From Candidatus Anstonella stagnisolia (GTDB lineage Archaea; Micrarchaeota; Micrarchaeia; Anstonellales; Anstonellaceae), in contig CABMCJ010000002.1 in assembly GCA_902384585.1 (NCBI GenBank), positions 79,062-143,061 of the forward strand: a DNA stretch of 64,000 bases, read 5' to 3'. This document shows, one piece after another, positions 19,241-46,725 of the stretch; positions within the stretch are counted from its first letter, which is position 1, and the number at the start of each line of letters is the position of its first letter. The notes under the pieces are model-generated. The model was not told where the DNA came from. It did no database searches and saw nothing but the letters and a program-made list of their open reading frames with translations. A program made the position numbers and the translations under genes.

Positions 19241-20788
19241 CTAGCCTTTTTTCAAATTGAATATGTTCGTGCTGCACTCGCCTTTTTGCTCCATTTGAGC
19301 GTTCACGTAGTCAAGAAGGATTTTCCTTATGCGCTCGAATTCCGCCTTGGGAACCTGCTGGTTAAGGACTGCGCAGATAAGGGATTTCGCATTGAAGCAG
19401 AAAATCGCGTCCTGCACGTTTTCGCAGTTGTGGCAGAAATATGCGTTCGCGCTTGAATACGTGCTGTCTACCTCGAAAGAATTGCGCAATTTTGTGGAAT
19501 CAAAGCAGTTTATGCAGAATGCGGAGTGCAGCATGCGCAAGTATCCGCCGAAAATGTGCTCGGATTCTATTGCTGCGGAAGTGTATGCGGAATTCTTGGA
19601 ATTCGTGCTGTCCCAGCATTTGTATATTCCAGAACCTGTAAAAATGTCGGGAGTGTCAGCGCAGTTTATGTTCTGCCCGTCCATGAATTCAACTGCGAAA
19701 TATGCGATTTTCCCAACGCGCGAAAGAAGTTCGGAAAGGGAGGGCGATTCGCCTTCCTTTAGGGAAATTTTCATTTCTGCGCACTTTTTGCTTTCTTCTA
19801 GCGAAACAAGGCGGTCCGCAGGAATGTCGCGCATTATGGGCAGGCCTACTTTGTAGCTGGGGTTCCCAAACGCGCCTTTCACTTTTTTTATGGGAAGTGC
19901 GCGTTTGAGCATGCCAGCGCCGTATTTTTTTATATTTTGGTGTTCTTTGCCAAGCACTATGCGGCAGGTGGAGCGGAAACCCTCTTCTACCTTTGGGGGA
20001 ACTGGGGAATCGTACGCAAGCTTTTCCTCAGGAACGTCTTCCTTTCTCCTGCCAACAAACGCAATGTCTGCAAGGGAGAAGAGGCGCTTGTTTTTGCGCA
20101 GCCCCTCAGCCATTTCTGCAAGCAGTTTCTTTTTTAGGGGAAGGAATTTTTCCTGCGGCAACTCCAAATTCCCTATCACGTTGCGCTTGGAGCGCAAGTT
20201 GAATGCGAAAATGCAATTCTGGCATCCAATGCAGTTTATTGCATAGTACATGTCGCTTATGCTTGCGCATGAGTATTCCTCAAAGCAGCGGTTTGCGTCT
20301 ATCCCTTCCCCGCAGCGCATGGAGAACTTTATTTTGGGGTGCGGGGCAAGCCCGAATACGTTTTCTGACTCGCGAACTACGGAGAGGTATGCCCCGTTTT
20401 TCACGTGGAACACGTTGTGCGAGAAGTGCACGTTTGAGCAGTCCACGCAGTTGTCCACGTCGGAAATCTGGAAATTTGTGCCGAAAACCTTGTTGCCGCA
20501 GAATATTTGGCGCTCTTGCGCGGCTGCAAGGAGCGAATCAATGTCCTTTATTTCGTTTATGTTAAGCGGGGCAAATTTGAGCTTTGAAACCTCTTCTTGC
20601 GAGACGAATTTTGCGTTCTTTGGGTAAAACGGATGCGATACTACTACGGGCTTGCCTGAGAGTGCGGACTTCTGGATTTGGTAAGGCATCATCATTTCCT
20701 TTAAGTAAGGCTCAAAGTCCGAAAGCTTCCCAATCTCGCTCCCAAAGAGGATGCGTGAGGTTGAGTCAAATGCGCTTTGCAAATCCAT
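19241..20788 (-). CDS. Cys-rich two-half protein, unknown function (fused form)
   Basis: 515 aa; CIGCQNCIFAFNLRSKRNVIGNLELPQEKF and CHNCENVQDAIFCFNAKSLICAVLNQQVPKAEFERI; homologous to 45198 and 45964 products. Confidence 0.85.
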   Translation of the reverse strand: MDLQSAFDSTSRILFGSEIGKLSDFEPYLKEMMMPYQIQKSALSGKPVVVSHPFYPKNAKFVSQEEVSKLKFAPLNINEIKDIDSLLAAAQERQIFCGNKVFGTNFQISDVDNCVDCSNVHFSHNVFHVKNGAYLSVVRESENVFGLAPHPKIKFSMRCGEGIDANRCFEEYSCASISDMYYAINCIGCQNCIFAFNLRSKRNVIGNLELPQEKFLPLKKKLLAEMAEGLRKNKRLFSLADIAFVGRRKEDVPEEKLAYDSPVPPKVEEGFRSTCRIVLGKEHQNIKKYGAGMLKRALPIKKVKGAFGNPSYKVGLPIMRDIPADRLVSLEESKKCAEMKISLKEGESPSLSELLSRVGKIAYFAVEFMDGQNINCADTPDIFTGSGIYKCWDSTNSKNSAYTSAAIESEHIFGGYLRMLHSAFCINCFDSTKLRNSFEVDSTYSSANAYFCHNCENVQDAIFCFNAKSLICAVLNQQVPKAEFERIRKILLDYVNAQMEQKGECSTNIFNLKKG

Positions 20789-20916
20789 GAAGATATGCGG
20801 ATTAACATATATATTAAAGATTTTATTGAAATTTGACCGAAAAGAAGGAAAAAAGAGAAAAAAGTATTAAAAACGGTTAGAAAATGAGAAAGAATTAAAT
20901 ATGGGAAAATGCACAT

Positions 20917-21900
20917 ATGTTTATGGAGAAAATTTCGCTGGATGAGATAGACAGGAAAATTCTTGCAGAGCTGGACAGGAACTGCCGCATCCCGAATTCT
21001 GTGCTTGCGAAAAAGGTGCGCCGCTCAAGGGAGGCTGTGAAGTACAGGATAGAGCAGTTGCAGAAGAAAGGGGTTATTGAGAAATTCATCACGTCCACAA
21101 ACCCCAACAAATTCGGGTATTACATGTTCAAGGTGTATTTGAAGCTTGAGAACATACCATCTGAACGGGAGAAATTCTTTGAGGAGCTGCGAAGGAATAG
21201 GGACATTTACTGGATGGGCATTTGTGATGGCGCGTTTGACTGCATTTTTGCAATACTTTCGCGCGACATTACGGGGTATTATGAGAAAATAAATGCGCTT
21301 CTTTCAAAATGGAGGCATCTTATTGTGAGCAAGGTGCTTGGGACGATGGTGGACACAAAACAGTACAACAAGAAATTCTTTACGGGAGATGAGAACGGAA
21401 CGTATGTAACGTTTGCGGGGAACGTTGCTGAAAATAAGGTGGACGAGCTTGATGAGAAAATACTGGATGTGCTTGCAAATGATGCGAGGATACCGATTAG
21501 CGAGCTTGCAAGAAAAGTGAAAAGCAATATGGAGGCTGTGAAGAGGAGAATGAAGAGGATGGAAGAGGCAGGAGTGATATTGCAGTATAGGATTGCAGTT
21601 GATTTCAATAAATTGGGGCTGGAATTCTTCAAGGCGATCATATATTTGAAAACGCTCTCGAAAAAGGATGAGGCTGCGCTTGGGGAATGGATGAGAAGGA
21701 ACCCAAAATCGATTTATTACATACGCAGCATTGCGCCCTGGGACGTGGAATTTGAGTTTGCGGTTGAGAATTACCAGGAGTTTAATGGGATAATAAATGA
21801 CTTGAGAAAGTGCTTCCCGCACGTAGTGGGGAATTGTGAGCACGTGATATTCATAGAGGAGAAATGGATGCCTGGGTATTTGGAAAGTGCGCAGAAGTAG
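20917..21900 (+). CDS. Tandem double Lrp/AsnC-family regulator
   Basis: Two HTH units (LDEIDRKILAELDRNCRIPNSVLAKKV; VDELDEKILDVLANDARIPISELARKV), each followed by a RAM-like region. Confidence 0.9.
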   Translation: MFMEKISLDEIDRKILAELDRNCRIPNSVLAKKVRRSREAVKYRIEQLQKKGVIEKFITSTNPNKFGYYMFKVYLKLENIPSEREKFFEELRRNRDIYWMGICDGAFDCIFAILSRDITGYYEKINALLSKWRHLIVSKVLGTMVDTKQYNKKFFTGDENGTYVTFAGNVAENKVDELDEKILDVLANDARIPISELARKVKSNMEAVKRRMKRMEEAGVILQYRIAVDFNKLGLEFFKAIIYLKTLSKKDEAALGEWMRRNPKSIYYIRSIAPWDVEFEFAVENYQEFNGIINDLRKCFPHVVGNCEHVIFIEEKWMPGYLESAQK

Positions 21901-44006: not shown

Positions 44007-44138
44007 ATGATTGCAAGCTTGATGTTCGTTGTGTTGTGGTATTTGAAAATTGTGCAGACGAATTACGACTGGATAATATTGTGCTTCCTTATTGCTCTGG
44101 AAACCGGGAACACGATAAGAGTGGTGCGGCACTACTGA
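44007..44138 (+). CDS. Predicted 43-aa membrane microprotein
   Basis: SD GGTGAT; MIASLMFVVLWYLKIVQTNYDWIILCFLIALETGNTIRVVRHY, one or two TMs. Confidence 0.5.
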   Translation: MIASLMFVVLWYLKIVQTNYDWIILCFLIALETGNTIRVVRHY

Positions 44139-45103
44139 AGCCCTTCATTGCGCAGGGGATTGAGCATGCGCTCCTCTACAACGGAAATAAAGGAGTGCCT
44201 GCCAATTATGTGCCCGAATTTTGTTTTTATTTCCCTAGTGAAATCGTGAAGCTCGGAATTGTCGCGCACTATTATGTCCACTTCGATGTCCCAACTGCCT
44301 ATTGCCTTGTTCAGGAAAACAACGTTGTCGTTTTGAGCGCAAAAGCGAAGGAATTGCTTCTCTTTTTCAGGAGTAATGCTGCGAAAGCCTATGAGGAACT
44401 TGTAGTAGTTGAAGCCGAGTTTTTTTGCATCAAACCATGCAGTAAAGCCCTGTATGAGCCCTTTCTTTTGGAGCATTTTTATGCGATAATTCACGGCGTC
44501 GGGGGTGAGGTTTGATTTTTTTGAGAGCTCCACGCTGCTAATGCGGGAATTGCCATAAAGCTCGCGAAGGATGATAAGGTCTATTGAATCGGTTTTTTCA
44601 ATGTGCGCAAGAGCCTCGGGAGGAAGCGGAGGGGAGCGGGGAGTCCCAAATGCCTTGTTCCACGGGAAATATACCTGATAAGTGGTTGTTGCGATTGTTT
44701 TCTCAACGATTTTTGAGCCGAAGTGCTCTATCATAAGGGATGCAAAGCGCTCGACCTCAAGCTCGTCTTTTGCGAGTATGCGGCACATTGCATCGTATTC
44801 GCCCTCGCATATCACGCCCCAGAGCGTGCGGGGATGGTTTTCAAACACGCGCAGCACTTCCTCCTCTGTTTTCTTGTCTAGGGAATCGAACTTGAAGTAG
44901 AGGCGGTAGGAGCGCAACCCAAGCTTTGCAAAGCTCACGTTTGCAAGCGGGAAGAAAATTATGCCTTGCTGCAAAAGCTGCGCCAGCCGCCGTTGCACTG
45001 CGGTATTGCTTAGGTGGAGCTTTTTCCCAAGCTGCACAAAGCTCTGGCGGGAATTTGTGTACATGAGGTCAAGCAGCCTCTTGTCCTTTGCATCAAGATT
45101 CAT
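44132..45103 (-). CDS. Tandem double Lrp/AsnC-family regulator
   Basis: Two HTH units (LDAKDKRLLDLMYTNSRQSFVQLGKKL; DSIDLIILRELYGNSRISSVELSKKS). Confidence 0.9.
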   Translation of the reverse strand: MNLDAKDKRLLDLMYTNSRQSFVQLGKKLHLSNTAVQRRLAQLLQQGIIFFPLANVSFAKLGLRSYRLYFKFDSLDKKTEEEVLRVFENHPRTLWGVICEGEYDAMCRILAKDELEVERFASLMIEHFGSKIVEKTIATTTYQVYFPWNKAFGTPRSPPLPPEALAHIEKTDSIDLIILRELYGNSRISSVELSKKSNLTPDAVNYRIKMLQKKGLIQGFTAWFDAKKLGFNYYKFLIGFRSITPEKEKQFLRFCAQNDNVVFLNKAIGSWDIEVDIIVRDNSELHDFTREIKTKFGHIIGRHSFISVVEERMLNPLRNEGLQ

Positions 45104-45197
45104 ATGCTAAATACACGAAAAATACATATATTTCTTTCGGTTTTATTGCGTTTTTTCTTAAGAATTTATTAATATAAGAAAGAGTACATATTTCACC

Positions 45198-45962
45198 ATG
45201 GAAAACAAAAATGCTCCCGAATGGGTGGACAAGGCGTGGGGCAGCACGTGCCGCACGCTTCTTGGCGGGGAAGTAGGAAGCATTGGGAAGTTTGAGGAGT
45301 ATTTGAAGAGGGACGTTCCGCATTTTCGGATTGGAAAATCCTCAATAAGCGGCAGGGAAATTGTTGTTGGTGGAGAATATGTGGAGGGAACAAAGTTCAT
45401 TTCCGGGGACGAGATAGGGAAGTATGCGCTTGCGGCTGCGCAATTGAACGTGAACGACATAAAGGATATTGATTCCATAATTGAGGCATTGGGCGAAAGC
45501 GTGCGCTATTGCGGCAACAATTTGATTGGGAATTGCTCAAATGCAACTCTTGCAAACCGACTTATAGACTCGAATTTCGTGCACTGCTCTTATGACGTTT
45601 TTTACAGCAAGTACGTTGCATACTCGAATGGAGTTAAGTATTGCGAATACGTTTTTGGGAGCGAGGGCGCTGGGAAGGGCGCGCATTTTGCGATTAAAGG
45701 GTTTGAGAGCTATGAGTGCAGCCGCGTATTTGAGTGCGTGCACGTGTACAATTCCTCTGACTGCTTTTACTGCGCAAACGTTGAGAACTGCCACGACTGC
45801 CTTTTTTCCTTTAATTTGCGCTCAAAGAGGAGATGCATTGGGAATCTGGAGCTGCAAGAGGGGAAATTTGCAGCGCTTAAGGCAAAATTGAAGGAAGAGA
45901 TTGCAGGGGAGCTTGGGGCGAAGGGCAGCGTGCAGGGAATATTGGGGATAATGGGCGGTTGA
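45198..45962 (+). CDS. Cys-rich protein, homologous to N-terminal half of the 19241 product
   Basis: CANVENCHDCLFSFNLRSKRRCIGNLELQEGKFAALKAKL; shared LNVNDIKDIDSIIEA and YCGNNLIGN. Confidence 0.85.
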   Translation: MENKNAPEWVDKAWGSTCRTLLGGEVGSIGKFEEYLKRDVPHFRIGKSSISGREIVVGGEYVEGTKFISGDEIGKYALAAAQLNVNDIKDIDSIIEALGESVRYCGNNLIGNCSNATLANRLIDSNFVHCSYDVFYSKYVAYSNGVKYCEYVFGSEGAGKGAHFAIKGFESYECSRVFECVHVYNSSDCFYCANVENCHDCLFSFNLRSKRRCIGNLELQEGKFAALKAKLKEEIAGELGAKGSVQGILGIMGG

Positions 45963-45963
45963 T

Positions 45964-46725
45964 ATGGAAGAGATAGAAATTGCATTTGGGAAAGTTACGA
46001 AGATACTGCTTGGAAAGGAGCTGCGCGGCATTGATGCGTATGCAAAATGGATTGCAGGGCGTTTGCGCGGTGGAGTGAAGAGGAAGAAATCAGTGGTGAG
46101 CGGGAACGCTGTTCTTTGCCCTTCGGTGAGGTATTATGAGGGCATGGGAAACAAGGTAGTAACAGCGCAGGAGGCGCTTTTGCTTGGGGAGAAAAAGCTT
46201 GAGGCAGGGGAAGTTGAGGCGCTTTCGCTTGCAAGCGCAAAAGAAACGCTTTCGAGAATAAGCACGAGCACGCCTGAGATTGTGTGGGGCACTAACATTG
46301 GGACGCTTGAGTGCTCAAACTACGGACCCACCCAATACTGCTACCGCAGCGCTTTCTGCTGGTTCTCAAAATGCGTTGCATATTCCTTTTGGCCAAGGGA
46401 ATGCGAGTATGCGTTCGGGTGCTCATACGTGCTCCAGTGCAGCTTTTGCATCCATTGCTACAATTCCACAAAGCTCTCAAGGTGCTTTGAGGTAAGCGAC
46501 TCCACGAATTGCGCGGACTGCTACTTCTGCCACAACTGCGAGAATGTGAATGAGAGCATGTTTTGCTTTAATGCGAAAAATTTGAGGTATGCGATTGGGA
46601 ATAGGGAGGTTGGGCGGGAAGCGTACATGCGGGTAAAGGCAAAAGTGCTTGCGCAGATTGCGGATGGGCTGGAAAAAGAAAAGAGATGCGAGTATGATAT
46701 TTACAAAATAGGATGCGGAAATTAA
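45964..46725 (+). CDS. Cys-rich protein, homologous to C-terminal half of the 19241 product
   Basis: CIHCYNSTKLSRCFEVSDSTNCADCYFCHNCENVNESMFCFNAKNLRYAIGN matches CINCFDSTKLRNSFEVDSTYSSANAYFCHNCENVQDAIFCFNAKSLICAVLN. Confidence 0.85.
   Translation: MEEIEIAFGKVTKILLGKELRGIDAYAKWIAGRLRGGVKRKKSVVSGNAVLCPSVRYYEGMGNKVVTAQEALLLGEKKLEAGEVEALSLASAKETLSRISTSTPEIVWGTNIGTLECSNYGPTQYCYRSAFCWFSKCVAYSFWPRECEYAFGCSYVLQCSFCIHCYNSTKLSRCFEVSDSTNCADCYFCHNCENVNESMFCFNAKNLRYAIGNREVGREAYMRVKAKVLAQIADGLEKEKRCEYDIYKIGCGN

Follow-up and report, generated by a model that had tools for sequence, protein, structure and literature searches.

A gene for a double-Lrp/AsnC regulator lies divergently from two consecutive genes of a cysteine-rich protein family in the window, that is, the whole 64,000-nucleotide stretch that was analysed (G000:C2:79062-143061, from a genome of 1.33 Mb in 6 contigs). 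This arrangement was designated cassette B, and CRP is used here as the working name of the cysteine-rich protein family found both in this cassette and in a second one, cassette A (Table 1; ORF starts are approximate throughout). The TGA of CRP-N ends at 45962 and the ATG of CRP-C starts at 45964, leaving one base between the genes; the open reading frames, this gap and the divergent region were exactly as described in the first-pass annotation of this DNA. That annotation had also matched the two CRP proteins of cassette B to the N- and C-terminal halves of a single protein, of 515 aa, in cassette A. Indeed, profiles constructed from the own-genome paralogues separated the two genes cleanly, with CRP-N scoring 258 bits against the N profile and 134 bits against the C profile, and CRP-C scoring 298 bits against the C profile and 166 bits against the N profile. 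The motifs said to be common to the two cassettes were likewise present in the sequences.

Table 1 Features of cassettes A and B, with positions in the window.
Feature	Position	Strand	Remarks and basis
Cassette A: fused N+C CRP	19241..20788	-	515 aa; in a deep clade other than that of cassette B
Divergent spacer, cassette A	20789..20916	.	11-nt near-palindrome TTAACATATAT/ATATATATTAA
Double-Lrp regulator, cassette A	20917..21900	+	327 aa; Pfam
Double-Lrp/AsnC regulator, cassette B	44132..45103	-	323 aa; ORF and Pfam
AT-rich divergent promoter region, cassette B	45104..45197	.	94 bp; sequence
CRP-N, N-type half	45198..45962	+	254 aa; own-genome N profile
CRP-C, C-type half	45964..46725	+	253 aa; own-genome C profile
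Cys ladder within the CRP-C solenoid (FCIHCYNSTKLSRCFEV...YFCHNCENVNESMFCFN)	46444..46572	+	9-residue repeats; Cys-column autocorrelation

The regulator of cassette B contained two stretches each of HTH_24, HTH_AsnC-type and AsnC_trans_reg domains above the Pfam cut-offs (PF13404, 69.1 against 27 bits; PF01037, 34.3 against 25 bits), which places it in the Lrp/AsnC family and bears out its earlier description as a double-Lrp protein. Its orthologues were found in G024 (61% identity) and G025 (56%). In G024 the regulator is again divergent from the CRP genes, with a CRP-C of 51% identity and a spacer of 103 bp; in G025 it faces an unrelated 367-aa gene with no Pfam match, and no CRP (L190:4736-5839). 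Two repeats in the spacer of cassette B are candidate operators, namely a near-palindrome of 12 nt, AAATACATATAT/ATATATTTCTTT, and an inverted repeat of 7 nt, TTTCTTA/TAAGAAA. In addition, a TCGGTTTT..TT block is common to this spacer and the orthologous spacer of G024 (two sequences only). The genome encodes eight double-Lrp genes, five of which are divergent from a CRP gene and within 130 bp of it. Two others have no CRP neighbour (L023:5200-6210 and L025:4762-5727), and one CRP-less copy adjoins an asparaginase gene (L023:6243-7283), which hints at amino-acid-linked control. The regulator upstream of the CRP array is of the HTH_10 (PF04967) type in other families, instead of a double-Lrp protein (L034:7520-8215, L079:4193-4915, L100:2509-3303 and others), and one HTH_10 gene also adjoins a CRP in the own genome.

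Cassettes A and B proved to be paralogous and to share the same layout 24 kb apart, as had been noted. However, their identity was 33% for the CRPs and 23% for the regulators, and they fell into different deep clades of the CRP tree, so that a recent or local duplication is rejected and the earlier proposal that they had been duplicated as a functional unit did not hold. Cassette A is kept as a unit in G001, G005 and G006 (regulator 64-89%, CRP 59-81%), and an A-type CRP (58%) is paired with an unrelated regulator (22%) in G009. Divergence of the regulators correlated with that of the CRPs (0.69 overall, above all 5000 shuffles), but the correlation fell to 0.13 once close pairs were removed. 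Co-divergence is thus confined to orthologues, and deep co-duplication of regulators with their CRPs was rejected as a general rule; the units are co-inherited for some time and reshuffled later. It is extremely unlikely that cassette B is a unit duplicate of cassette A whose fused gene broke in two: the common layout at a distance of 24 kb would agree with such an origin, but the deep clades, the low identities, the lack of long-range co-divergence, a split common to orthologues in three other genomes and its ancestral position in the tree of C halves (see below) all speak against it.

The two cassettes, on which the first-pass annotation had built its view of two copies in the window, account for 2 of the genome's roughly 19 copies, namely 3 split pairs and 16 fused genes, one of which is broken by an in-frame TGA, and that view had missed the ATPase partner described below. 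About 29 kb (about 2%) of this genome is thereby devoted to one uncharacterised protein family, in a group whose genomes are about 1 Mb. With some 19 family members in the genome and orthologues of cassette B that are likewise split in G005, G006 and G024, the pattern of this cassette is far beyond chance. The family was found in 24 of 39 relatives, with 0-33 matches per genome, and in 39 of 196 genomes of a phylum-wide sample; the named relatives are Candidatus Micrarchaeota (NCBI phylum Microcaldota). The own-genome paralogues have conserved orthologues (82% in the genus mate). The copy with the in-frame TGA, a paralogue of the cassette A protein (56%) in the main cluster (L021:12272-13600; G000:C4:684271-685809), carries this codon inside its C half, which reflects either decay of the copy or an error in the sequence; selenocysteine was dropped because the position is a serine column.

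No match to CRP was obtained in Pfam, NCBIfam, PDB sequences or PADLOC, no CRP relative was found in viral contigs, phages or plasmids, and a literature search retrieved no paper on the family in Micrarchaeota. The functionally uncharacterised viral profile phrog_15341 matched 13 of 14 paralogues (up to 7e-10) in a shifting repeat register, and Methanosarcina also matched it.

Origin, pairing and predicted fold of the CRP halves

Comparison by hhalign showed the N and C families to be homologous (E 2e-32). Trees that combined 102 halves with 8 single-domain relatives as the outgroup gave three clades (N, C and single-domain), each with support of at least 100/98; this indicates one common origin of the halves, and not the independent origins that the first-pass annotation had named as a refutation of its view. 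The halves are ancient homologues born of one duplication, and their conserved motifs differ (KDIDS, R167 and E170 in N; HNCE and FCFN.K in C).

The genes of the split pairs are always in the order N then C, and they overlap or abut (-59 to +5 bp, 28 pairs). Over all loci surveyed, a partner was present for 41 N and 45 C halves, 7 others lay at contig or locus ends, and the sole apparent orphan was a frame-broken fused gene (L054), so that no true orphan half was observed. Furthermore, the N and C distances in split pairs correlated with r=0.80, the best of 2000 shuffles being 0.31. The absence of true orphans and this co-divergence favour an obligate N+C pair, as had been proposed for the split version. 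The CRP unit thus consists of two homologous but distinct halves, in one chain or two, and never of one half alone.

Which state came first was read from the same trees. When the C tree was rooted on the single-domain outgroup, its first two branches were all split, and 172 of 200 bootstraps recovered the split as ancestral, the other 28 being ambiguous. The N tree was ambiguous in 110 and gave the fused state in 89 of 200. On the bootstraps of the C tree, the split state is quite probably ancestral and fusion later, contrary to the earlier notion of the split as derived. The tree neighbours of cassette B include fused genes (L104 and L095), and a local re-split may have occurred in its lineage.

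AlphaFold modelling of the fused protein of cassette A with 130 natural homologues gave a pLDDT of 92.3 and a pTM of 0.90; with 14 sequences the pLDDT was 78 and no fold match was obtained. In the model, each half combines a helix/hairpin head with a solenoid rich in strands, and a long helix forms its C-terminal part; the pTM would be consistent with an N/C interface. Read across from this paralogue, CRP-N is predicted to have a helical/beta-hairpin head, a beta-solenoid and a C-terminal helix, and CRP-C the same domain plan. Foldseek found nothing significant in PDB or BFVD (best E 0.025 and 0.048, respectively; TM about 0.1 by query), including the known beta-solenoid families (LbH hexapeptide, gamma-carbonic anhydrase); the weak matches were left-handed beta-helix proteins.

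The autocorrelation of Cys columns was positive only at multiples of 3, with the strongest emphasis at 9. At lag 9 the values were 0.48 and 0.55 (p 0.0004 and <0.0002), the latter being that of CRP-C (permutation p<0.0002). Among the columns with over 30% Cys, one was 98% Cys and the rest were 31-91%, swapping with Ser, Ala, Val and Thr, and the invariant metal-ligand cysteines of metallothionein or zinc-type proteins were not found in CRP. These properties fit a beta-solenoid of 9-residue repeats in which the cysteines occupy stacked core positions. Since the periodicity is 3/9 residues and the Cys columns interchange with Ser and Ala, the cysteines are probably core ladders and not metal sites. 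A cysteine content of 4.7-7.1%, with CxxC motifs in cassette B, and the location of most own-genome copies away from the ATPase might suggest instead that CRPs are independent metal- or redox-binding proteins whose link to the ATPase is incidental. This is very unlikely, as the residue swaps and the strict spacing disfavour metal sites and the co-occurrence with the ATPase, given below, is too strong.

A HerA/DUF87-type ATPase beside CRP genes

When all genes neighbouring a CRP were clustered, the most frequent one, present in 24 genomes, encoded an ATPase of about 560 aa. The own-genome copy (G000:C4:688105-689763) is outside the window, beside the main CRP cluster of the genome. DUF87 matched all 10 aligned members including this copy (E<=0.001), exceeding the Pfam gathering score of 23.2 bits in L060 (48.5) and L196 (26.4), and Walker A (GxSGxGKSK) and Walker B (DEF) motifs were present; the protein therefore belongs to the HerA/DUF87 ATPases. 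One ATPase is found per genome, usually beside the CRP array. In the 196 genomes, 36 had both genes, 3 only CRP (G008, G015 and the incomplete G160), 2 only the ATPase (G002, L176; G029, L171) and 155 neither (Fisher 2e-33, a p-value inflated by the shared ancestry of the genomes). Both genes are also present in remote families, where their sequences have diverged (E 1e-22 to 1e-30 for CRP; 31-35% identity for the ATPase). Some of the other loci had been chosen by CRP, and adjacency is therefore unbiased only in the 20 regions that had been selected by way of the ATPase; 15 of these had a CRP next to the ATPase, and the distance between the two was often 0-100 bp. Taken together, these findings identify a HerA/DUF87-type ATPase, by gene association, as the main partner of the CRP family.

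In the ATPase-chosen regions only HTH_10 or double-Lrp regulators were otherwise conserved beside the ATPase, and no membrane, NurA, restriction, nuclease, SIR2 or DUF4297 gene was conserved there. In one group a conserved gene nearby is presumably threonine-synthase-like. A double-Lrp gene is divergent from the ATPase itself in G023 (L167), at about 105 bp. A distant HerA-like ATPase (24%) on a viral contig (L202:4001-5002) was the one such protein in the viral collection.

The most distant loci consist of one ATPase and one single-domain gene. The minimal loci L195 and L196 have the ATPase followed by one single-domain CRP, that of L196 scoring equally with both profiles (115 bits for N, 114 for C); in G191 and G192 the locus is an ATPase with one single-domain CRP, and in G125 an ATPase with five or six. 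These loci and the order of the half trees suggest a series from a single-domain partner through a duplicated pair and fusion to expansion. So complete a series of single gene, duplicated pair and fused protein is rare, and it offers a testbed for obligate pairing.

No strong transmembrane segment was found in CRP or the ATPase, which, with the lack of any other conserved partner gene, is as expected of a soluble motor-partner pair. Paired genes, massive paralogue expansion and a single ATPase of the FtsK-HerA superfamily would also be consistent with CRP pairs as cargo exported by an FtsK/HerA-like ATPase, in the manner of EccC with type VII substrates. The ATPase profile matched the FtsK/SpoIIIE-type PDB 4nh0 (6.8e-8) and EccCb (6e-7), and TrwB_AAD_bind matched all 10 members. 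However, the EccCb match reached 28 bits, far under the curated cut-off of 346.6, CRP has no visible signal sequence, and neither a transmembrane segment in the ATPase nor a conserved membrane gene by the arrays was seen; export of CRPs is therefore decidedly unlikely.

A role in defence or DNA processing, with the ATPase moving on DNA and CRP recognising invading DNA or proteins, is a narrower version of the explanation preferred below. HerA-type ATPases recur in defence systems, the ATPase matched PADLOC mad8 (1.3e-14) and several HerA models (1e-6 to 1e-8), and the family is patchy in spread and very variable in copy number. However, these matches are remote and mainly cover the P-loop, no nuclease or other effector was recognised, the orthologues are conserved in the genus mate and are not a fast-changing repertoire, and dedicated Lrp switches are unusual in defence, all of which makes this role unlikely.

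A proposed two-part machine and known systems

With slightly less than even confidence, we read cassette B as a separately regulated satellite copy of an ATPase + CRP module, in which the N+C heterodimer would partner the HerA-type ATPase, one motor serving interchangeable partners. From the gene association we infer a physical interaction between CRP and ATPase, a biological role for it, and each of the following steps. CRP-N and CRP-C of cassette B would assemble into a heterodimer that corresponds to the fused protein, and the CRP unit would dock on the ATPase ring as a partner or adaptor, as NurA, SIR2 or DUF4297 do on HerA. The many paralogues may be interchangeable partners that direct one motor to different targets or states, as their multiplicity and dedicated Lrp switches suggest. 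The double-Lrp protein might sense a small ligand of the amino-acid type and switch its own cassette via the shared 94-bp promoter. Against a machine of this kind count the lack of a recognised nuclease or other enzymatic motif in CRP, the location of most own-genome copies, cassettes A and B among them, far from the ATPase, and the five genomes with only one of the two genes. More broadly, it is possible, if somewhat doubtful, that Micrarchaeota possess a HerA-type machine of a new class, in which one motor is served by many interchangeable, individually regulated beta-solenoid partners of two halves, derived from a single-domain partner by duplication to an obligate pair and later fusion and expansion. 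The association suggests that these archaea of tiny genomes contain a molecular machine of two parts that has not been described before; the pairing of CRP with one HerA-type motor would make of an expanded ORFan family a defined two-component machine open to testing, whose natural minimal versions (the ATPase and one single-domain CRP) are suited to biochemistry.

Type VII secretion combines an ATPase of the FtsK-HerA superfamily, EccC, with paired adjacent genes (Esx or PE/PPE) and large paralogue expansions. In contrast, no membrane parts were found for the CRP module, and its proteins are predicted beta-solenoids and not helical hairpin pairs. The DNA-translocating ATPases CedB/CedD of Crenarchaeota and TdtA of Thermus are HerA-like, as is the Micrarchaeota ATPase (CedD match 1.4e-8), but the CedD model NF053655 gave 33.9 against 600 bits, and no Ced membrane proteins were conserved near the Micrarchaeota ATPase. 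A secretion or conjugation channel is less likely in view of the missing membrane parts, a point tempered by the ability of the HerA-like hexamer of TdtA to act at the membrane (PMC5365140). The regulators share the HTH and ligand-binding domain of Lrp/AsnC (FFRP) proteins but are tandem, double-length proteins with eight paralogues. As a lead only, a CPR protein annotated as 'CaiB/BaiF family protein' is presumably a similar Cys-rich repeat protein, with a 'NLRNKxYxIxNKQYxKEEY'-like end motif.

The HerA two-component systems (DUF4297-HerA, HerA-SIR2 and HerA-NurA) likewise place a DUF87/HerA-type P-loop ATPase beside a soluble partner, but the matches of the Micrarchaeota ATPase to HerA models were far below the cut-offs (HerA-antiphage model NF042943, 31.7 against 800 bits). 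We know of no parallel in these systems to some 19-30 CRPs per single ATPase. In DUF4297-HerA, the HerA hexamer is activated by layers of the partner stacked upon it (PMC11291478). CRP differs from the partners in those systems in being a predicted beta-solenoid in which no nuclease or NADase motif was recognised, in its many paralogues per ATPase, and in being duplicated and either split or fused.
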